This document shows positions 8,723 to 35,838 of a DNA stretch of 37,268 nt, piece by piece. Made by a program: the position numbers and the translations under genes. The notes beneath the pieces are model-generated. The model did not search any database. It saw only the letters and a program-made list of their open reading frames with translations, and was not told the DNA's origin. The DNA comes from Pirellulales bacterium. Lineage in GTDB: Bacteria > Planctomycetota > Planctomycetia > Pirellulales > JAEUIK01. Position 1 is the first letter of the stretch. Each line of letters begins with the position of its first letter. The stretch is from the NCBI GenBank assembly GCA_019745975.1, contig JAIESQ010000080.1:1-37268 (forward strand), read 5' to 3'.

Positions 8723-9106
8723 TCAGGAAAGCGCTTGCTGCACGCACTGTTTCAGCGACGCGATGAGCTCATCCGTACGACGGACCAGGGTGTCTACGGA
8801 ATTTCGAGCGCTTTCCAAGTCGTTGGCGCGGGCCAGCAATTCAAGCTGCTTGGCCAATTCGTAGGGCCCGGCCACGGTGAAATTGCCAATCGCACCGCAC
8901 AACGTGTGTGCCGCCAGGATCAGCCGGCTTTGATCCGCGCTGCCCAGCGCGCTACGGATTTCCGCGAACAGCGGTGGCGTATCCTCGATGAACATCTCCA
9001 CGAGCTCGGCGAAGAGATTCATGTCGGCGCCGATTCTCGTCAGCACCATGGTGGCGTCAAATGCCGCGACACTTCCTGGCGGCTCATGCTGGCCAATAGC
9101 AGACAT
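8723..9106 (-). CDS. Stand-alone HPt (histidine phosphotransfer) protein
   Basis: This 127-residue all-helical protein carries the HPt signature around H67: SRLILAAHTLCGAIGNFTVAGPYELAKQLE. The His, the glycines and the hydrophobic spacing are conserved, but the Lys usual two residues after His+1 (HxLKG) is Cys (HTLCG). The N-terminal DATMVLTRIGADMNLFAELVEMFIEDTPPLFAEI matches the first helices of ArcB-type HPt domains. It would shuttle phosphate between receivers, here most simply the GGDEF regulator encoded 21 bases downstream. It is divergent from cheA across a 312-base gap, so both arms may share regulation. Start ATG 9106 fits the domain length. Confidence 0.88.
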   Translation of the reverse strand: MSAIGQHEPPGSVAAFDATMVLTRIGADMNLFAELVEMFIEDTPPLFAEIRSALGSADQSRLILAAHTLCGAIGNFTVAGPYELAKQLELLARANDLESARNSVDTLVRRTDELIASLKQCVQQALS

Positions 9107-9418
9107 CTAGCGCTCTCGTACGTGGTGTGCCGATCGTAGCGCTGTGGTTCAGTCAAATGAGCGCTACACGACCGCCACATTGCCAAGCTAGCTCAGGAAT
9201 AAGGAACACGCGGAATTATCCATCGCAAATCTGAACGATCGTCGCGCATGCGAAAGGCCGTGAGCTATGGTTAGGCAGGTCCGCCTGCCAACACGCCCCA
9301 GAACACACCCCCCGAAATCGTCATTCCACGAGCGCTACCCCGCGAATCCTGATGCTGGGTCGTCTCGATCCCGCCTGCCCAAGACGAGCCGACGACTCTC
9401 GACAAAGAAGCGAGTCTC
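9107..9418. other. Divergent intergenic region between HPt and cheA
   Basis: This 312-base region should hold promoters for both arms of the chemosensory island. Two palindromes are visible: GTAGCGCT (9136-9143) facing AGCGCTAC (9160-9167) with a 16-base loop, and the perfect hairpin at 9274-9289. No confident -35/-10 or sigma-54 element could be picked by eye. No protein-like frame was found. Confidence 0.45.
9274..9289. repeat. Perfect short hairpin GGCAGG-TCCG-CCTGCC
   Basis: A 6-bp perfect stem with a 4-base loop lies 130 bases upstream of cheA. It could be a protein-binding site or part of a dispersed intergenic palindrome. Only one copy was noticed in the window. Confidence 0.4.
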
Positions 9419-16885: not shown

Positions 16886-19099
16886 TCACGACGCGGCGCC
16901 CAGTGCCGCGTCAGAAATCGACGACGGGACTTCAGGCGCCGCGACCTTAACCGTGAGTCTGACCGGAACGCCGTTGAGGATCGACTGCCCGACGACCGAC
17001 TCGACAGTCTGATCGTCGGTCCAGTCGTTGACCGAGAAGCCCGGGTGAGTGCCGGCTGTCGTTTGCCAGCGGGCCACCGCGGCATGTCCCCAGCCGTGTG
17101 GCAGGCTGACGACGCCGGGCCGCATCTCGTCGCTGATTTTGACCGGCACTTCACCGCGATGAACGCGGCTTTCGAGTATCGCCGTCTGGCCGTCGTGTAC
17201 GCCCGCCCTGTCCGCGTCATCGGGGTGCACGAGCAAGACGCACCTTGGCCGCCCCGAGACTAATTCCGGGACGTTGTGCATCCACGAATTGCAGGTCCGC
17301 AGTTCGCGCCGGCCAATCAAACGTAATGTGCCGTTCACGGGAGCGTCGGCCAATTCGCGGGCCAATTCGTCCATTGCCGCCAACAAGGGGGGTGCGCTCA
17401 AGTGAACTTTCTTGTCGCGGTGCGATACGCGGTGAGCAATGCCCGGCTTCAGTGGCCCCAGATCGAGCCCATGCTCGGCCCGCCGCAATTTCCTCAGGTT
17501 CAATCCCTGCGACCATGGCAAATACTTGTCGCCGAACGGACCCAGCCGCAGGAGCATGTCGGCCATTTGCTCGGGGCGCCAGTGAAGGCCGACCTTACGC
17601 GCCGCGCGATAGACGGCATCGAGCGGCTTGATGCCCGTCGGCCCGCCCCCCAGTCGATAGCACAACTCAAGCAGAATCTCCCAATCGGCGAACTGGCCGG
17701 GTCGTTTCTCCAGGACTGGCGGCGAGATGCGGGCGACGTTGCGGACCGCGACGCTGCCAAAGATCAAGTCGATGTGTTCTTCAACGAGGCTCCAGGCCGG
17801 CGGCAAGATGACATGCGCGTGGCGGGTCGTTTCGTTGATGTACAGATCGACCGAGGCCATGAACTCAGCGCCGGCCAGCGCCCGATCGAGCCGTTTGCTG
17901 TTGGGGCTCGAGAGCACAGGATTGCCAGCGACGGTCAGAACACCGCGGACCTGCCCCTGGCCTGGCGTCTCCATTTCTTCGGCCAGAACTGTCGTTGGCA
18001 ATTCTCCCAAGGTCTCCGGCAATCCGCGGACTCGACTGCGCCAGCGGCCGTGGCCGTCGCCGTTCATCTTGAGCGCGGGGGCAATGTCGAACGCCGGGTG
18101 CGGGAACATCCAGCCGCCGATCTCACCCAAGCGACCGGCAGCCAGATTTAACAGGTCGGTGGCGAAGGTCCCTAGCGTGGCATGCGGCGCCGCGCACGTG
18201 CCCATCCGCGAGTAGGCAACCGACGACTCGGCGGCCGCGAACTCGCGAGCCAGGCGGCGAATCGTTTCCGCCGGCACGCCAACATGCGGCGCGACGCGCT
18301 CGGGCGCAAATGCTGGCAGTTTTGGCTCGATTGCTTCCCAGCCACTAGAAAGCCGCGCGACGGCGTCGCGGCGCAGCAAGTTCTCTTCGACCAGCGTTTG
18401 CGTCATCGCCAACAGCAGCGCGGCGTCGCCCCCCGGGAGTATCGCCACGTGTTCGTCCGCGTCGCGTGCCGTCTCCGTAAAGCGCGGGTCGACAACCACC
18501 AACCGCCCGCCGCGGGCGCGCAGCTTCTGCAGCCGGCCGCGGATATCGGGAGCGGTGCAGACGCTGCCGTTCGACACGCGCGGGTTTGCGCCGACGCAAA
18601 GGAGATAGCTGGTGCGATCGATATCGGGAACCGGCATCGCCAGCGAATTGCCGAACAGGTAGTACGACGCGGCGAAGCGCGGCGCCGTATCTTGCGACGA
18701 GGCGCTGTGATTGTTCCGCGTGCCCAGCGTTTTCACGAGCCCGGCCCGCAGCATCAGGATGCCGTGGTTGTGAGCGATGGGGTTGCCCATGTACAGGGCT
18801 ACGGCGTGGCGGCCGTACAGTTTGCGAATCCGCTGCAGGCCCGCGGTCGTGAGACGATAGGCTTCTTCCCAGCCGATCGGTTCAAAATCACCGGCTGGCG
18901 TGCGGCGGACGGGTGTTCGCAAGCGATCGGGATCCTGATCGACGGTACCGAGCGTCAGCCCCTTCGGGCAAACATAGCCGTGCGACAGCGGGTCATCGGC
19001 ATCGCCGCGAATGGCCGCGATGCGGTTGTCCTCGATGTCGATGGCCAGGCCGCAGCCCGCTTCACAAAGCGTACAGGCCCGAAACACCGTGCGGTTCAT
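16886..19099 (-). CDS. Cytoplasmic molybdopterin oxidoreductase (formate dehydrogenase alpha-like)
   Basis: The reading from ATG 19099 (MNRTVFRACTLCEAGCGL) gives 737 residues. The frame is open to 19315, but that extension is Arg/His-rich and precedes the normal family start. The N-terminal [4Fe-4S] motif is C9-x2-C12-x3-C16-x27-C44-PKG. Family text follows: DPDRLRTPVRRTPAGDFEPIGWEEA, MGNPIAHNHG, VVVDPRFTETARDADEHVAILPGGDAALLLAM, ETTRHAHVILPPAWSLVEEHIDL, and a C-terminal molybdopterin-dinucleotide-binding domain with CNSWMHNVPELV and HPDDADRAGVHDGQ. The segment where formate dehydrogenases have Cys or Sec is Ser-rich (SASSQDT), so the metal ligand and substrate are uncertain. No Tat signal is present, so it acts in the cytoplasm. 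No FeS or diaphorase subunit is encoded nearby. Confidence 0.88.
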   Translation of the reverse strand: MNRTVFRACTLCEAGCGLAIDIEDNRIAAIRGDADDPLSHGYVCPKGLTLGTVDQDPDRLRTPVRRTPAGDFEPIGWEEAYRLTTAGLQRIRKLYGRHAVALYMGNPIAHNHGILMLRAGLVKTLGTRNNHSASSQDTAPRFAASYYLFGNSLAMPVPDIDRTSYLLCVGANPRVSNGSVCTAPDIRGRLQKLRARGGRLVVVDPRFTETARDADEHVAILPGGDAALLLAMTQTLVEENLLRRDAVARLSSGWEAIEPKLPAFAPERVAPHVGVPAETIRRLAREFAAAESSVAYSRMGTCAAPHATLGTFATDLLNLAAGRLGEIGGWMFPHPAFDIAPALKMNGDGHGRWRSRVRGLPETLGELPTTVLAEEMETPGQGQVRGVLTVAGNPVLSSPNSKRLDRALAGAEFMASVDLYINETTRHAHVILPPAWSLVEEHIDLIFGSVAVRNVARISPPVLEKRPGQFADWEILLELCYRLGGGPTGIKPLDAVYRAARKVGLHWRPEQMADMLLRLGPFGDKYLPWSQGLNLRKLRRAEHGLDLGPLKPGIAHRVSHRDKKVHLSAPPLLAAMDELARELADAPVNGTLRLIGRRELRTCNSWMHNVPELVSGRPRCVLLVHPDDADRAGVHDGQTAILESRVHRGEVPVKISDEMRPGVVSLPHGWGHAAVARWQTTAGTHPGFSVNDWTDDQTVESVVGQSILNGVPVRLTVKVAAPEVPSSISDAALGAAS

Positions 19100-19324
19100 G
19101 GCGGAGTCCCTGGGTGCAGGCGGATTGGCGCTGGAGGAAATTCTGACGTGGCCGCGTCCGCTTGGCAAATTGGCGATTCTCCGACGGCAGCCACAGGGCT
19201 CGATGTGGTGCTTTCTGCTGTGAGTTTCCTGGTCAATGCGATGCGCTTGGCAAGAAACATGCCCGTCTTCTCGTCTCCGTTCGGTAAATGCGACGAGCAG
19301 CGGCTTGATCGACAACGCGTCGTA

Positions 19325-31063: not shown

Positions 31064-31957
31064 GTGGACACTTCGCTTAAGGAGAATGATTGGTGGCGTG
31101 CCGCGGCACGCGAATCGCACGACCGCTTCGGCCACGACGCGACGCTCTCGACCGCGACCGATTCGGCGCCCCGCCAACGACGGCGGATTATTCGCCCCGC
31201 GATTCAAGCGGTGTGGCAGTTCGCGGGCTTCATGGTGACGTTGCCGTTGGCGCTGCTGCGCGGACGCAAGGGAGACTCCAACGAGGTCACCGTCTACACG
31301 GCGCACCCCAGCTTCTTCCTCTGGCCGCTGATCGTGATGGGCTTTGTCTGCGCGGAGATCGTCGAGCACTCGCCGCAACTGGCGGGCACGCTAGGGTGGG
31401 TCTACGTCTGGGTGCTGGTCTACTTTCTGGTGACGATGTTGTACGACTTCAGCACGCGCAAGCTCGCCCTATGGGCACTGATCTTCACGCTTATCTGGTT
31501 GACGTCGAAATACGTCGAGCAGGTGAAGCAAGTAGTGCTGCTGGGGGCCGTGTTCGACTACCTGGCCAGCTTGCATCCGAAACTGGATGCCGGCACGGTC
31601 ACGGTGTTGAGCTGGCTGCTGCTGTTGCCCTGGCTCGGTTCGCTGTTGCACATGGCCCTCAACGGCCGCAAGCGGTTCACGCCGAACGAAATCGGTGAGT
31701 TCCACTTCGGCGAGGGGAGCGAGCTCACCGACCGCACGGGCTTGCGATTCCGCACGAAGTATCGCGACGTGCTAGAGACGCTGCTCACGTTTGGCGGCGG
31801 CGATCTGTTGGCCGTCGACAATCACCAGAACGTGATCAAACGCTGGGACAACGTCATCGGCCTGTTCTTCTTCTGGAACGAGCTCGATCGCGTGCTGCAC
31901 CAGCGCGCCGTACTGGACATCCAGGACGAAAGCAAGGAGCAAGCCAAGAGCGAGTGA
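31064..31957 (+). CDS. Multi-pass membrane protein next to an APC permease, function unknown
   Basis: This 297-residue protein has a GTG start backed by AAGGAG. The N-terminal 43 residues are charged and soluble. Hydrophobic segments lie near 45-65, 83-101, 108-128, 134-149 and 178-198. The C-terminal third (about 200-297) is soluble and begins NEIGEFHFGEGSELTDRTGLRFRTKYRDVLETLLTFGGGDLLAVD. Its strand-rich pattern ending in an amphipathic helix is suggestive of a bacterial PH-like domain, but that is a guess. The family is not named here. It is followed after 75 bases by the permease gene on the same strand and is likely the first gene of a four-gene operon. Confidence 0.8.
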   Translation: MDTSLKENDWWRAAARESHDRFGHDATLSTATDSAPRQRRRIIRPAIQAVWQFAGFMVTLPLALLRGRKGDSNEVTVYTAHPSFFLWPLIVMGFVCAEIVEHSPQLAGTLGWVYVWVLVYFLVTMLYDFSTRKLALWALIFTLIWLTSKYVEQVKQVVLLGAVFDYLASLHPKLDAGTVTVLSWLLLLPWLGSLLHMALNGRKRFTPNEIGEFHFGEGSELTDRTGLRFRTKYRDVLETLLTFGGGDLLAVDNHQNVIKRWDNVIGLFFFWNELDRVLHQRAVLDIQDESKEQAKSE

Positions 31958-32032
31958 CTGCCGGAAACTGCTGTGCAATAACGTCCGCACTGTCACTCGA
32001 CTGCGCCGACGGCGGCGCGGGGCCAGGCAACC

Positions 32033-33857
32033 ATGTCTCACGATCGCTCTCGCGGCCAGCAGGCCACTAGCCCCTGGCCGCTCGTCTTGTGTCTGATCGG
32101 CGTCGACTATTTCAGCACGCTGGCGTACTTGCCCTCGATCGCCGTGGCGGCCGCCGGACCACTGGCGCCGGTGGCCGCCGCAGGCGTGGTGCTCGTGACG
32201 TTCTTGATGGCGCTGCCAATCTATTGGTACGTCGTGGGCTGCTCGTCCGACGGGCGCGGCGGGCATCTTCGAAGATCACGTCCCCGGCTGGCGCGGCAAG
32301 CTCGTCGTGCTCACGCTGTTGGGCTTCGCGGCGTCCGACTTTGTGATCACCCGCAGCTTGTCGCTGGCCGACGCCGCGATCCACCTGATCGACAACCCGC
32401 ATGGACAACGCTTGTTCGATCGCCTGCAAACGAACCGTTGGGTCGATACTTCGACCTGGTGGCCGCCGCTGGCCGGCGCGGCGCACTACCTGGCCGATCG
32501 CCAGGTGGCGATCACGCTCGGCCTGTCGATCGTGTCGTTCGCGCTCTGGCAGTTGTTCAAGAACGGCATGGCGCGGCGGATGCTGCAACTGACAGCGCTG
32601 GCGGTTGCCTGTTATCTGATCGTCAACGCCCTGGTGATCGGCAGTGGGCTGGTTTATGTGGCGCAGCACCCCGCGACCTGGCAAGGGTGGCGCGATGCGC
32701 TCTTTGTCGCTGAAGAGGCCACGAGCCAAGGGGGAGACCATGCGTCGGCCTGGTTGTGGACGTGGCTTGGCGTCGGGCTTTGGACCTTTCCGCAGATGGC
32801 GCTGGGGCTGACCGGCTTCGAGATGATCATGACGGTCACGCCGGCGGTGAGCGGGGCGACCGGCGGCAAACCTGGTTCGCGTGCCGGCCGTGTCCGCAAC
32901 ACGCGCAAGTTGATGGTCGTGGCGGCGTCGATCATGGCCGTTTACCTCACCAGCGCCGTGTTGGTGACGACGCTGCTCGTGCCGCAGCCGCAGATCATGC
33001 CAGGCGGACTGGCCGAGCATCGCGCACTGGCGTATCTGGCACACGGCTCGCCGCTGGCCGTCGATTCCGGTGGCCAAATCAATCCGCTGTTTGGCAACAA
33101 GTTCGGCGACTTGTTCGATCTGTCGACCGCCCTGGTGCTCTGCCTGGCGGGCGCGAGTGTGACGATGGGCTTGCAGACCCTGTTGCCGCATTACCTGAGC
33201 CGACTGGGGATGGAGATCAGTTGGGCGGGTCGCGTCGGCCTGATCATGCACCTGCTCAACGCGATCGTGCTGGTGATTACCGTGGTGTTTCGCGCCAGTC
33301 CTTCGTCGCAACAGTGGGCTTATACGACGAGCGTGTTGGTGCTCTTGGCCGGCGGCGCGCTGGCCATGGCCAAGGACTTGCAGCGGCGCAGCGGGACACG
33401 TTTGGCACGGTACCCGCTGCTCGCGCTGGCGGTGCTGGCGGGCAGTTTCTTCCTGGCCATGACCGCCTTGACGACGCTGGTGAATCACTCGGGGCTGACG
33501 ATCGCGCTGGCGTTCGTAGCGGCGATCCTCGCCAGTTCGTTTGTCTCGCGGTGGATCCGCAGTACTGAACTGCGTTTCGAGGGATTCGATTTCGTTGATG
33601 CGGCGACCGACAGCCGCTGGCACGAACTGTGTGGCTCGGAAGCCACGTCGGCTAGGTCGAATACGCGGCTCGACGTTCGACTAGTTAGTGGAACGACGTT
33701 CGACCCCATGGCGCTAAGCGTGCTTGCCGCGATCTCTGTATTCGTTGTCCCGGCTAACGAACTACCGAACAAACTGTCCGCCGATCGCTTGAGTCGATCG
33801 TTGCCGCGCGAAACAATCTCGACTGCACCACAACCTAGCGAGGGAGCCATCGCATGA
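32033..33857 (+). pseudogene. APC-superfamily permease-like gene with a frameshift
   Basis: The gene reads MSHDRSRGQQATSPWPLVLCLIGVDYFSTLAYLPSIA in the first frame up to VVGCSSDGRG near 32260. It then continues in the +1 frame as AGIFEDHVPGWRGK...LTLLGFAASDFVITRSLSLADAAIHLI to the stop at 33855-33857. Together these make a permease of about 600 residues with roughly 11-12 membrane segments, like the amino-acid/polyamine (APC) permeases common in planctomycetes. The shift falls in a GC-rich run around 32255-32268 (GGGCGCGGCGGGC) and fits a lost dinucleotide or a gained base. It may be a real inactivation, a sequencing error or, less likely, programmed. The stop overlaps the next start as ATGA. 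The last 60 residues look degenerate compared with the membrane core. Confidence 0.75.
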
Positions 33858-34969
33858 GCTCGGTACGAGTCCTGGTCGGCACGCGCAAAGGAGCTTTTGT
33901 TCTTAGCTCCGACGGCAAGCGTCAAAAATGGGATGTCAGCGGCCCGCATTTCGCCGGCTGGGAGATCTACCACATGAAGGGTTCGCCGGTAGACCCCAAT
34001 CGCATCTATGCCTCGCAGTCGAGCGGATGGTTCGGTCAGTTGATTCAGCGTTCGGACGACGGCGGAAAGACCTGGGCACCGGTCGACAACAAGTTTGTCT
34101 ATGAGGGGAACCCCGGCACGCACCTGTGGTACGACGGCACGCCTCACCCGTGGGAATTCAAGCGCGTTTGGCACTTGGAGCCTTCGCTTTCCGACGCCGA
34201 CACGGTTTTCGCCGGCGCCGAAGACGCCGCCTTTTTCAAAACAACCGACGGCGGCAAGTCGTGGCAGGAGCTGCCAGGATTGCGCCAACATGGCTCGGGC
34301 AAGTTCTGGCAGCCGGGGGCCGGCGGCATGTGCCTGCACACGATCGTGCTCGATCCCAGCGATCCGCAGCGGATCTATATCGCCATTTCGGCGGCCGGCG
34401 CGTTTCGCACCGACGATAGCGGCCAGACCTGGAAGCCGATCAATCGCGGGCTCAAGTCGGACCAGATTCCGAACCCCGAGGCCGAGGTCGGCCACTGCGT
34501 GCATCGCATCGCCATGCATCCTTCGCGTCCCGGTACGCTCTTCATGCAGAAGCACTGGGACGTGATGCGCAGCGACAACGCCGGCGACCAATGGCACGAA
34601 GTGAGCGGCAACCTGCCGACCGACTTCGGCTTTGTGATCGACGTACACGCGCACGAGCCCGAGACGATTTACGTCGTGCCGATCAAGAGCGACGCCGAGC
34701 ACTTTCCGCTCGACGGCAAGCTGCAAGTGTTCCGCAGCCGCACGGGCGGCAACCAGTGGGAAGCGCTCACCCGCGGTTTGCCGCAAGCCAACTGCTACGT
34801 GAACGTGTTGCGCGACGCCATGGCGGTCGACTCGCTCGACGAGTGCGGCGTGTACTTTGGCACGACGGGCGGGCAGGTTTACGCGTCGGCCGACGCCGGC
34901 GACAACTGGACCGCGATCGTCCGCGATCTCCCCGCGGTCGTATCGGTCGAGGTGCAAACCATCGCATGA
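33854..34969 (+). CDS. Asp-box (BNR/sialidase-type) beta-propeller protein, cytoplasmic
   Basis: This 371-residue protein has no signal peptide: it starts [17 protein letters not shown]. Six Asp-box motifs (S/T-x-D-x-G-x-x-W) can be read: [40 protein letters not shown] and SADAGDNW. The fourth to sixth are imperfect. They mark successive blades of a six- or seven-bladed propeller. Sialidase catalytic residues (the Arg triad) were not recognised, so an enzyme role is not supported. It overlaps the permease stop (ATGA at 33854) and the MoaD-like start (ATGA at 34966), so it is tightly coupled to both. Linkage of this kind of propeller to a MoaD-like protein is, to my knowledge, recurrent in bacteria but unexplained. 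Confidence 0.9.
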
Positions 34970-35262
34970 TTCGCGTCGTGTTGCCCTTTCATTTGCGGAT
35001 GTTGGCCAAGGTCGAGGGGGAAGTGCGGCTCGACTTCGACGGCGCGGCCACGCAGCGCGCCGTGATCGACGCGCTCGAAGCCCGCTACCCGATGCTGAGC
35101 GGCACGATCCGCGACTACCACACCGGGCGGCGGCGGCCGTTCCTGCGGTTCTTCGCCTGCGAAGAAGACTTGTCGAACCAATCGCCCGACGAGCCATTGC
35201 CCGCGGCGGTCGCAAGTGGCGACGAGCCGTATTTGATCGTGGGAGCGTTGGCCGGTGGCTAA
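34966..35262 (+). CDS. MoaD/ThiS-family ubiquitin-like protein
   Basis: This 98-residue protein starts at ATG 34966, overlapping the propeller stop by four bases. It has the beta-grasp order [49 protein letters not shown] and a C-terminal [10 protein letters not shown] ending in Gly-Gly. The GG end is what adenylating E1-like enzymes (MoeB/ThiF) activate to make a thiocarboxylate sulfur carrier. No moaE, thiG or E1-like gene is nearby, so use in molybdopterin or thiamine synthesis is not implied. The insert [25 protein letters not shown] is longer than in classic MoaD. Its translational coupling to the propeller suggests a joint role, perhaps as sulfur donor or protein modifier. Confidence 0.88.
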
Positions 35263-35327
35263 TGCGGCGGGCCACATGGCGCTGCGCACCGTCGGCCGCG
35301 CCCTCCAGAATAAGATTGCCCGGGAAT

Positions 35328-35455
35328 TTGCGTCCCTACCGTCCCGGCGTGCTGTTACATGCGGTTAACCTTTTTTCTATGAACTAGTTGCGTCGGGACG
35401 CAAATTGGAGAATCTTGCGTCCCGGTTGCGTCCCGCGGGGCATTTTGCGTCCCGG
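35328..35455. repeat. Cluster of TTGCGTCCC motifs
   Basis: TTGCGTCCC occurs at 35328-35336. TTGCGTC-GG-GACGCAA, a perfect inverted pair, is at 35388-35403. TTGCGTCCCG follows at 35415, 35426 and 35445. The same word builds the inverted repeat at 1863-1905. Confidence 0.7.
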
Positions 35456-35471
35456 TATGGGTCTCCGAAGC

Positions 35472-35584
35472 GTTAGCCGCGGAGCTTGCTCCGCGCGCTA
35501 GCAAGCACGACGCGACATCGAAACTCGCGCAGTGGTGGCGCGACGTCGCACGAGCTAGCGCGCGGGATAAATCTCGCGGCTAAC
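35472..35584. repeat. Inverted pair of 31-bp elements (GTTAGCCGCG...CGCGCTAGC)
   Basis: The left copy (35472-35502) and the right copy (35554-35584, inverted) share ends GTTAGCCGCG and CCGCGCGCTAGC. Their centres differ: GAGCTTGCT on the left, AGATTTATC on the right when read in the same direction. They are 51 bases apart. The shape resembles a REP pair or a small MITE-like element. Confidence 0.75.
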
Positions 35585-35620
35585 AAGGTAATCGTCGCGC
35601 AGCGCGCAGGGCACTCGCCA

Positions 35621-35676
35621 CCGTGGCATGGGCTTCTAGCCCATGTGCCATCACGGCCAGGATGGCCGTGCCACGG
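35621..35676. repeat. Double-hairpin element within an outer inverted repeat
   Basis: CATGGGCT-TCT-AGCCCATG (35627-35645) and CACGGCCA-GGA-TGGCCGTG (35652-35670) are two perfect 8-bp hairpins with 3-base loops. They are enclosed by CCGTGGCA (35621-35628) and TGCCACGG (35669-35676), so the whole block could form a cruciform or a three-way structure. Confidence 0.75.
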
Positions 35677-35838
35677 CAAGCGTGGGGTACGGTATCCGCG
35701 CGGACGGCGTTCCGTAGCCGCTGGCGGCTCGTTCATCCTAGCAATCGGTGGCTATTTGTCAAGACTAGTATGACCATTGTTACTAACATTATTTTGGTCA
35801 TAACGCGGCCCACGCAACCCGGACGGGGGGGCCATGAA

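Follow-up and report, generated by a model that had tools for sequence, protein, structure and literature searches.

An Asp-box propeller with a conserved Cys/Sec/Asp site is paired with a SAMP1/CysO-like ubiquitin-like protein across bacterial phyla and includes predicted selenoproteins

Introduction

In the window, by which we mean the whole 37,268-nucleotide stretch of Pirellulales DNA analysed here, a beta-propeller gene and a gene for a small protein ending in Gly-Gly follow a membrane protein gene and a permease gene. The locus raises the question of which of these genes belong together, and what a propeller might do with a ubiquitin-like protein (Ubl). An earlier note on this DNA had taken the four genes for one operon, possibly a sulfur-carrier or protein-conjugation system linked to transport. 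Several prokaryotic Ubl systems offer a frame for the question. The sulfur carriers MoaD and ThiS are each encoded with one dedicated client enzyme, MoaE and ThiG, respectively; CysO of Mycobacterium has MoeZ, CysM and Mec as partners, and SAMP1 of Haloferax has UbaA and JAMM1.

Results

Propeller and Ubl form a two-gene unit

The strand, order and coordinates that the earlier note gave for four packed genes stand (Table 1), and both ATGA overlaps that it reported, at 33854 and 34966, are present in the sequence. The permease, however, is two frames and not one open reading frame: it starts at 32033 in one frame and reaches 33857 in another, with a switch at about 32240-32306 that we left unmended, and its end overlaps the start of the propeller gene by 4 nt. 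The long permease piece resembles Deinococcus proteins annotated as APC or amino-acid transporters (35-38% identity), and no transporter match to the permease was found among Pfam and NCBIfam profiles.

Table 1 Features of the locus in the window
Feature	Position	Strand	Remarks
Membrane protein, family not assigned	31064-31957	+	297 aa; outside conserved module
APC-type permease, frame-broken in assembly	32033-33857	+	Outside conserved module
7-bladed Asp-box beta-propeller, partner 1	33854-34969	+	371 aa; translation, Pfam, PDB 3b7f, model
Cys160-Leu161-His162, second C-x-H motif (propeller)	34331-34339	+	
Codon of Cys215 (propeller)	34496-34498	+	Alignment of 88 distant homologues
Codon of His217 (propeller)	34502-34504	+	Invariant, 88/88 distant homologues
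Gln232 to His234 (propeller)	34547-34555	+	
Codon of Arg320 (propeller)	34811-34813	+	87/88 distant homologues
ATGA start/stop overlap, propeller/Ubl	34966-34969	+	
MoaD/SAMP1/CysO-like Ubl, partner 2, Gly-Gly end	34966-35262	+	98 aa; translation, model, SAMP1 match
Gly97-Gly98, Ubl C-terminus	35254-35259	+	Alignment of 90 close sequences

Neither the permease nor the membrane protein was found by tblastn (E <= 1e-4) at any of 19 related loci having the pair or its Ubl. Fifteen of these have a flank long enough to reveal a directly preceding permease, 14 with more than 5 kb before the propeller and L168 with 2.3 kb; less than 0.7 kb is available for L167, L170 and L177, and the propeller is missing from L171. 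This absence speaks against the transport link and the four-gene operon, and the permease-propeller overlap looks like a local feature. Judged by sequence comparison, the real unit is two genes, propeller and Ubl.

The notion that these two might be neighbours in this genome only does not hold, since the pair is adjacent across phyla. Among the 80 best close loci (the best of at least 80 matches listed, not a random sample), the Ubl adjoins the propeller at 76; at the other four, three sequences stop less than 80 nt from the propeller and L097 has 180 nt. At distant loci the Ubl is adjacent in 72/88 (38/40 in Planctomycetota, 31/40 in Actinomycetota/Acidobacteriota and 3/8 in the plasmid collection), the remaining 16 being without a neighbouring Ubl. 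Gene calls at related loci were crude, script-based ones, and part of the training set of the broad Ubl profile came from Planctomycetota loci that were also searched with it, L194-L241 being outside that set. Organism and phylum names of the loci are those of the record titles, which include the cultured strains Hyphomicrobium facile DSM 1565 and Edaphobacter aggregans DSM 19364. Both gene orders occur. Of the 88 close pairs in which the overlap between the two genes could be measured, 75 have exactly 4 nt, a conservation that implies coupled synthesis, and in L217 a ThiS-type Ubl, a short linker and the propeller make up a single open frame of 459 residues, with both Pfam scores above cut-off. 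A search of 246 genomes from the window's phylum, in which part of the first-pass candidates were scored, found a close Ubl in five, the window's own included, and a close propeller in the same five. One genome, G037, has a Ubl with no propeller detected on the stretch examined. The propeller and Ubl trees agree: 71 distant pairs and 25 of 89 close ones, 96 in all, give r = 0.72, versus a permuted maximum of 0.115. That the two proteins would act as one functional unit is well supported by these comparisons.

The propeller family is widespread. Of the 246 genomes sampled from the window's own phylum, at least 109 have it (E <= 1e-20). The counts are at least 103 of 297 for the phylum to which L023 (record title Acidobacteria) belongs (E <= 1e-50), at least 91 of 396 for that of L073 (titled Actinomycetota) and, far lower, at least 4 of 247 for that of L096 (titled Deltaproteobacteria); these are lower bounds, as the searches scored part of the first-pass candidates.

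A conserved Cys/Sec/Asp site marks the propeller

The propeller belongs to the 3b7f-type Asp-box propellers by sequence (E 5e-68 to PDB 3b7f) as well as by fold (structural Z 49.6, seven blades in both, model pLDDT 92.6). It passes the Pfam Sortilin-Vps10 and short BNR/Asp-box repeat models, and no signal peptide is evident by eye. Entry 3b7f is Reut_B4987 of Ralstonia eutropha JMP134, a 'putative glycosyl hydrolase with BNR repeats' from the same family as the window propeller, and its function is listed as 'Not known' in the available part of PMC2716378.

Relatives of the propeller carry the annotations 'sialidase family protein' or 'exo-alpha-sialidase'. Such names, which stand in the plasmid records, would make the propeller a glycosidase or sialidase with an incidental Ubl next door, and the next sequence and structure matches after 3b7f are indeed GH74 propellers. 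Yet the sialidase-type Pfam models stay under cut-off (BNR_2 11.9 versus 31.4 bits, BNR_3 13.3 versus 27 bits), the Ubl recurs beside the propeller at close and distant loci alike, and the propeller has a conserved Cys/Sec centre; we consider the glycosidase reading very improbable.

That centre, which the earlier reading had missed, ranks as the strongest functional clue. Across 88 distant homologues, position 215 takes three states only: Cys (64), in-frame TGA (10) and Asp (14). His217 is kept in all 88, His162, His234 and Arg320 in 87 each, and Gln232 in 86, while Cys160 occurs in 56 of 74 Cys/Sec-type propellers versus 0 of 14 Asp-type ones. Cys314, a candidate for a second conserved Cys, was rejected, being Cys in just 5/88. 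This conservation argues strongly that the propeller is an enzyme and not a sialidase, with a putative active centre made of Cys/Sec/Asp215, His162, His217, Gln232, His234 and Arg320, often together with Cys160. From the strand order, the centre would sit at the propeller mouth, where the inner strands begin.

The Asp-type propellers retain the Ubl though they have no Cys or Sec at position 215, and 3b7f itself has Asp at this site when aligned with the window propeller. They form one group (11/11) in one tree; in the other, three changes are needed and no single clade appears even without L198. Leu stands directly before SGG in 11/11 readable distant Asp-type pairs versus 0/59 distant Cys/Sec pairs, but a coupling of this Leu to Asp-type propellers was dropped because the Leu also occurs in 12 of 90 Ubls from close Cys-type pairs, that of the window included.

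In-frame TGA codons predict selenoprotein members

Ten of 40 Planctomycetota propeller loci, from 8 genomes and 5 families, contain a single in-frame TGA, and the 40 show no other stop. In the multiple alignment the TGAs share one column with Cys (L145 is one column off in a pairwise alignment), the coding signal persists beyond the TGA, and Cys and selenocysteine (Sec) genes are interleaved on the tree. All 8 genomes have a tRNA-Sec above 65 bits, and SelB is above cut-off in 7; tRNA-Sec also exceeds the gathering score in 14 of 18 other genomes, so this machinery test is not discriminating. A SECIS-like hairpin lies downstream of the TGA in all ten, with best stems of 6-9 bp and an apical loop of GGC or GGT in 8/10. 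Stems in 23 Cys genes average 4.9 bp, although six of the 23 reach 6-7 bp. Hairpins were scored by stem length. The stem-length test gave P = 5e-5 with related genes counted as independent, and folding z-scores lent weak hairpin support (P about 0.05, with L145 one codon out of register and kinship ignored).

Might these codons be true stops or sequence errors? All ten genes come from draft genomes, which would suit that explanation. Against it stand the recurrence of one single codon at ten loci with Cys and Asp homologues, the conserved frame beyond the TGA, and the presence of both hairpin and Sec machinery, and we give it very little credence. We predict instead that the TGA propellers constitute an apparently undescribed selenoprotein family, whose Sec forms were seen in the window's phylum only. 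Known bacterial selenoproteins, such as AhpD-like proteins and arsenate reductase, likewise have a TGA at a conserved Cys, a downstream hairpin and Cys homologues. A TAG in L216 and L217 was rejected as a recoding event, these being natural ends at residue 369. The window propeller itself is of the Cys type.

The Ubl resembles SAMP1 and CysO and has a Gly-Gly tail

The 98-residue Ubl terminates in GALAGG, and its model (pLDDT 92.1) has a beta-grasp fold, with SAMP1 3po0 as the best PDB match (TM 0.75/0.81, E 2.8e-5, Foldseek) and CysO 3dwg as the second, which bears out the earlier view of a GG-ending ubiquitin-like protein. It has no Pfam match at E <= 1, and its SAMP1 family score is 12.4 versus 60 bits; distant partner Ubls score higher, up to 56.7 for SAMP1, and one passes moaD_arch (50.3 versus 49.5). 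That it might be the cell's ordinary ThiS or MoaD, a doubt raised in the earlier note, is ruled out by three other ThiS-family genes plus MoaE, all on other contigs of this genome; the cell's ThiS appears beside thiG on another contig (names assigned from translations).

The Gly97 and Gly98 columns are invariant in 90 aligned close Ubls, a few of which have residues beyond. In 85 of 89 close Ubls the protein terminates in GG, once as GGG, and 4 end otherwise. Residues beyond GG are found in 16 of 72 distant Ubls, five of the ten Sec-type among these; six of the 16 continue into another Pfam domain, in L217 the propeller itself, and the L201 Ubl has no GG.

Such extended tails and the one GG loss would suit a Ubl that is a non-covalent propeller subunit, its tail closing the mouth like a lid or sitting there as a cofactor-like ligand, with no E1 step. 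The Cys/Sec/Asp-His centre would then possibly be a metal site, for which the interchange at position 215 and the three conserved His are also fitting ligands. The conserved gene overlap with its implied coupled synthesis, the internal GG of the natural L217 fusion and the scarcity of linked E1 genes described below favour this arrangement too. It accords less well with the invariant GG of the close group, the SAMP1/CysO-like fold, and the occasional ThiF-rhodanese or JAB gene next to a pair; we regard it as unlikely, yet as a serious contender.

Activation genes adjoin a few pairs

Three loci, L053, L040 and L083, have a ThiF-rhodanese (E1-rhodanese) gene at most 100 nt from the pair, and L083 also has a Prok-JAB gene beside it. 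E1-like genes were found in only 3 of 187 loci; the chance of three within 1 kb is about 7e-4 if each 4.5 Mb genome is taken to have two E1 genes. The window genome's strong E1-like gene is unlinked to the pair and has no rhodanese domain. Among the 25 commonest of 127 families near close pairs, VOC/3-dmu-9_3-mt, YCII, DoxX, HxlR, sigma factor and AHSA1 recur, each in at most 9 of 144 neighbours, so that no third gene stands out as constant. At some pairs, the genes next door hint weakly at a link with electrophile or redox stress.

These neighbours also bear on protein conjugation, in which the Ubl would be attached to targets and the propeller would recognise targets or load or remove the Ubl via Cys/Sec215. 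The nearest fold is that of SAMP1, a protein modifier (a role also given in abstracts), the residues beyond GG resemble ubiquitin precursors, and a JAB-type peptidase domain lies beside the L083 pair. However, no E2-like family is present among the 25 commonest neighbour families in each of two sets (127 and 137 families), and Sec is typical of redox, not ligase, chemistry. Conjugation therefore appears improbable.

Discussion

The reading that we favour, as plausible if somewhat short of probable, is a two-component enzyme in which the E1-activated Ubl tail meets a Cys/Sec redox or sulfur-transfer centre of the propeller. A MoeB/MoeZ-type E1 that also serves other pathways would activate the Ubl at its Gly-Gly, probably forming a thiocarboxylate as in CysO and SAMP1. 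The tail would then insert into the propeller mouth, where Cys/Sec215 may accept or reduce the carried sulfur (or acyl group) or pass it to a small molecule. Where a Ubl extends beyond GG, the extra residues would first have to be removed, for which a JAB peptidase is a plausible candidate, unless such Ubls function without activation. Activation is proposed because of the SAMP1/CysO fold, the invariant GG in the close group and the ThiF-rhodanese genes by three pairs. The sulfur-carrier suggestion of the earlier note fits the same fold and neighbours, but activation, sulfur transfer and a small-molecule substrate are what we infer. The proposed mechanism is weakened by the rarity of linked E1 genes, by a GG that is sometimes internal or absent, by the Asp types and by the unpaired propellers.

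The pair shares with the CysO and SAMP1 systems a beta-grasp Ubl with a GG tail and, at a few pairs, adjoining ThiF-rhodanese or JAB genes. It differs in its constant partner, an Asp-box propeller in place of a cysteine synthase or a protein target, and in that E1 and JAB genes are mostly unlinked. With MoaD-MoaE and ThiS-ThiG it has in common the pairing of a Ubl gene with a client gene, although the propeller is unrelated to MoaE or ThiG.

Within the open-licence literature, excluding supplements, we found no publication linking a BNR-repeat or sialidase-type propeller with a MoaD/ThiS protein, and none on a propeller/BNR or 'sialidase family' selenoprotein. Term searches in the available parts of selenoproteome papers gave no propeller or sialidase selenoprotein; section 7 of PMC12013277, as far as it was available, names none, and the accessible portion of PMC1779556 mentions no propeller, sialidase or BNR. 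Both families have been masked by misleading names, sialidase for the propeller and MoaD/ThiS for the Ubl.

With this pair, prokaryotic ubiquitin-like proteins would gain a use beyond those known, and with the Sec propellers a fold not expected there would join the selenoprotein families; Cys/Sec215 and the GG tail are concrete targets for experiment. More tentatively, the propellers may be a Cys/Sec enzyme family for which the E1-activated Ubl tail serves as a swinging sulfur or acyl donor, a possibility to which we give rather less than even credence. If this is true, Ubls would have a client enzyme of a new kind, the Sec forms would found a selenoprotein family of their own, and the name 'sialidase' would conceal a small-molecule or redox-stress pathway of wide distribution.

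Conservation of the propeller-Ubl pair

Used as a query against GTDB contigs, the window propeller yielded at least 574 relatives; the best 80 share 77-87% identity with it, and their record titles span many phyla. The Ubl gene lies downstream of the propeller in 76 of these 80 loci. Among the other four, the contig ends less than 80 nt past the propeller in three, and the fourth, L097 (180 nt past the propeller), shows a Ubl-like start that then decays. Of 88 close pairs in which the overlap could be measured, 75 have one of exactly 4 nt (ATGA in the window). Among 246 genomes from the window's phylum, the close propeller and the close Ubl occur in the same five, one of which is the window's own.

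We also compared 88 distant propellers, mostly at 30-46% identity (L198 at 25%). The Ubl adjoins 38/40 propellers from Planctomycetota, 31/40 from Actinomycetota and Acidobacteriota and 3/8 from plasmid-collection loci, 72 in all, with the Ubl downstream at 50 of these loci and upstream at 22; no Ubl neighbour was found for the remaining 16 of the 88, three Rhodobacterales among them. Across 96 pairs, 71 of them distant and 25 drawn from the 89 close ones, the Ubl and propeller trees correlate at r = 0.72; the highest value among 2000 permutations was 0.115. As judged by these comparisons, the two proteins are paired, which bears out the earlier note in linking them. At one distant locus, L217, both lie in a single open frame in which ThiS and Sortilin-Vps10 each score over cut-off; it may be made as a single chain or from internal starts. 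Separately, a solo family propeller on a Rhodobacter sp. CZR27 plasmid adjoins the ergothioneine synthesis genes egtB and egtD, and an orphan Ubl with no propeller detected on the stretch covered (L171, genome G037) sits behind an open frame that reads, in translation, as transposase-like.

In the window, a membrane protein gene and then a permease gene precede the pair, and the earlier note had proposed a four-gene operon linked to transport. Neither upstream gene was found by tblastn in 19 related loci holding the pair or its Ubl, 15 of them with at least 2.3 kb of upstream sequence (more than 5 kb in 14, 2.3 kb in one) and four too short or lacking the propeller; at a twentieth, L185, there was no match to any of the five queries. 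The conserved module thus comprises two genes; a link to transport finds no support.

Features of the window, whose source genome is a 6.98 Mb draft, and of related loci
Locus	Positions	Strand	Feature	Remarks
Window	16886-19315	minus	ORF resembling, presumably, a molybdopterin-dependent oxidoreductase	reading of translation; ~15 kb from the pair
Window	32033-33857		APC-type permease, frame-broken	overlaps propeller start by 4 nt; frame shifts at about 32240-32306, either assembly error or real
Window	33854-34969	+	Asp-box propeller, 371 residues	translation
Window	34966-35262	+	Ubl, 98 residues, C-terminus GALAGG	translation
Window	35290-35760		non-coding; short phrases resembling palindromes recur	after the Ubl; by eye
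L191 (window's genome)	9075-9338		another ThiS-family Ubl, ending GGG	~5 kb from presumed thiS
L217	2254-3630	minus	459-residue open frame spanning both Ubl and propeller	GG internal

A conserved centre in the propeller

The window propeller model (pLDDT 92.6) is closest to PDB 3b7f (Z 49.6 across 354 residues), followed by GH74 propellers. The passage of PMC2716378 on 3b7f describes a 7-bladed Asp-box propeller with function 'Not known'. Alignment of the 88 distant homologues shows a conserved centre: H217 is present in 88/88, H162, H234 and R320 in 87/88 each, and Q232 in 86/88. Residue 215 is Cys in 64, TGA-encoded in ten and Asp in 14 (the Asp call of L198 being uncertain), and C160 accompanies 46/64 Cys, 10/10 TGA and 0/14 Asp forms. 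Active sites of propellers usually lie at the mouth where the strands start. The predicted strand order puts C160-H162, C215-H217 and R320 at or just before strand starts and H234 in a turn, probably at this mouth.

Predicted selenocysteine forms

Ten of the 40 distant Planctomycetota loci (L126, L128-L130, L132-L135, L139 and L145; 8 genomes, 5 families) carry a single in-frame TGA; no other stop occurs in any of the 40. Multiple alignment places all ten TGAs at the Cys215 site, while pairwise alignment puts that of L145 one column off. Each is followed by a SECIS-like hairpin with a best stem of 6-9 bp, starting at an offset of 19-23 in 9/10 and with a GGC or GGT loop in 8/10. The mean stem is 7.1 bp, versus 4.9 bp in 23 Cys genes (Mann-Whitney P = 5e-5, uncorrected for kinship); stems of 6-7 bp also occur in 6/23 Cys genes. 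Identity downstream of the TGA is as high as upstream, with third codon positions most variable. On a site-masked tree Cys and Sec genes interleave, requiring six changes (shuffled minimum 8).

All eight TGA genomes have tRNA-Sec (>65 bits), and seven have SelB over cut-off, the eighth genome being 85% complete. Since tRNA-Sec also exceeds the gathering score in 14 of 18 other genomes tested, its presence is consistent with Sec insertion but not discriminating; the four genomes without it hold Cys forms only. The window propeller is itself a Cys form, though its genome has both tRNA-Sec and SelB. No TGA was flagged in the homologue tables for three other phyla, and the term passages of six selenoproteome papers and one section of PMC12013277 name no such propeller family. 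We predict, from sequence, a new selenoprotein family in Planctomycetota.

The Ubl tail and its neighbours

The window Ubl model (pLDDT 92) has SAMP1 and CysO as its top PDB matches; the sequence alone gave no Pfam match and a SAMP1 score of only 12.4 bits. A weak SAMP1 match occurs in 64/90 close Ubls (best E 1.1e-5), and for eight of the distant partners the score is 32-57 bits. The GG is invariant across 90 close sequences and terminal in 85 of 89 full-length ones. Among distant pairs, 16 Ubls extend past it, mostly by 1-6 residues (L135 by 27); six of the 16 run on into another domain, leaving GG internal: LMWPc (L128, L165), AHSA1 (L134), DinB_2 (L141), in L223 a BipA-type GTPase and in L217 the propeller. 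The L201 Ubl has lost its GG.

ThiF-family E1 genes were found in 3/187 loci (L053, L040 and L083), each less than 100 nt from the pair and each with a rhodanese domain; the Poisson chance of three E1 genes within 1 kb is ~7e-4, assuming two per 4.5 Mb genome. At L083 the E1 is split over frames and a Prok-JAB domain adjoins; at L053 a JAB-like match lies ~4 kb off. In the window's own genome the single strong E1-like gene is not linked to the pair and lacks a rhodanese domain.

Possible mechanism

We propose that the Ubl would be activated by an E1 and its tail delivered to the propeller centre, where redox or sulfur chemistry would take place. Because Asp variants, internal GGs and one GG loss exist, uniform chemistry or activation should be assumed with caution: the chemistry may vary among pairs, or the Ubl may work without activation. 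Families near close pairs (VOC, YCII, DoxX, HxlR, AHSA1 and sigma-factor) hint weakly at electrophile or redox stress. The propeller-Ubl pair would represent a new form of Ubl-client-enzyme system, with a predicted new selenoprotein family.
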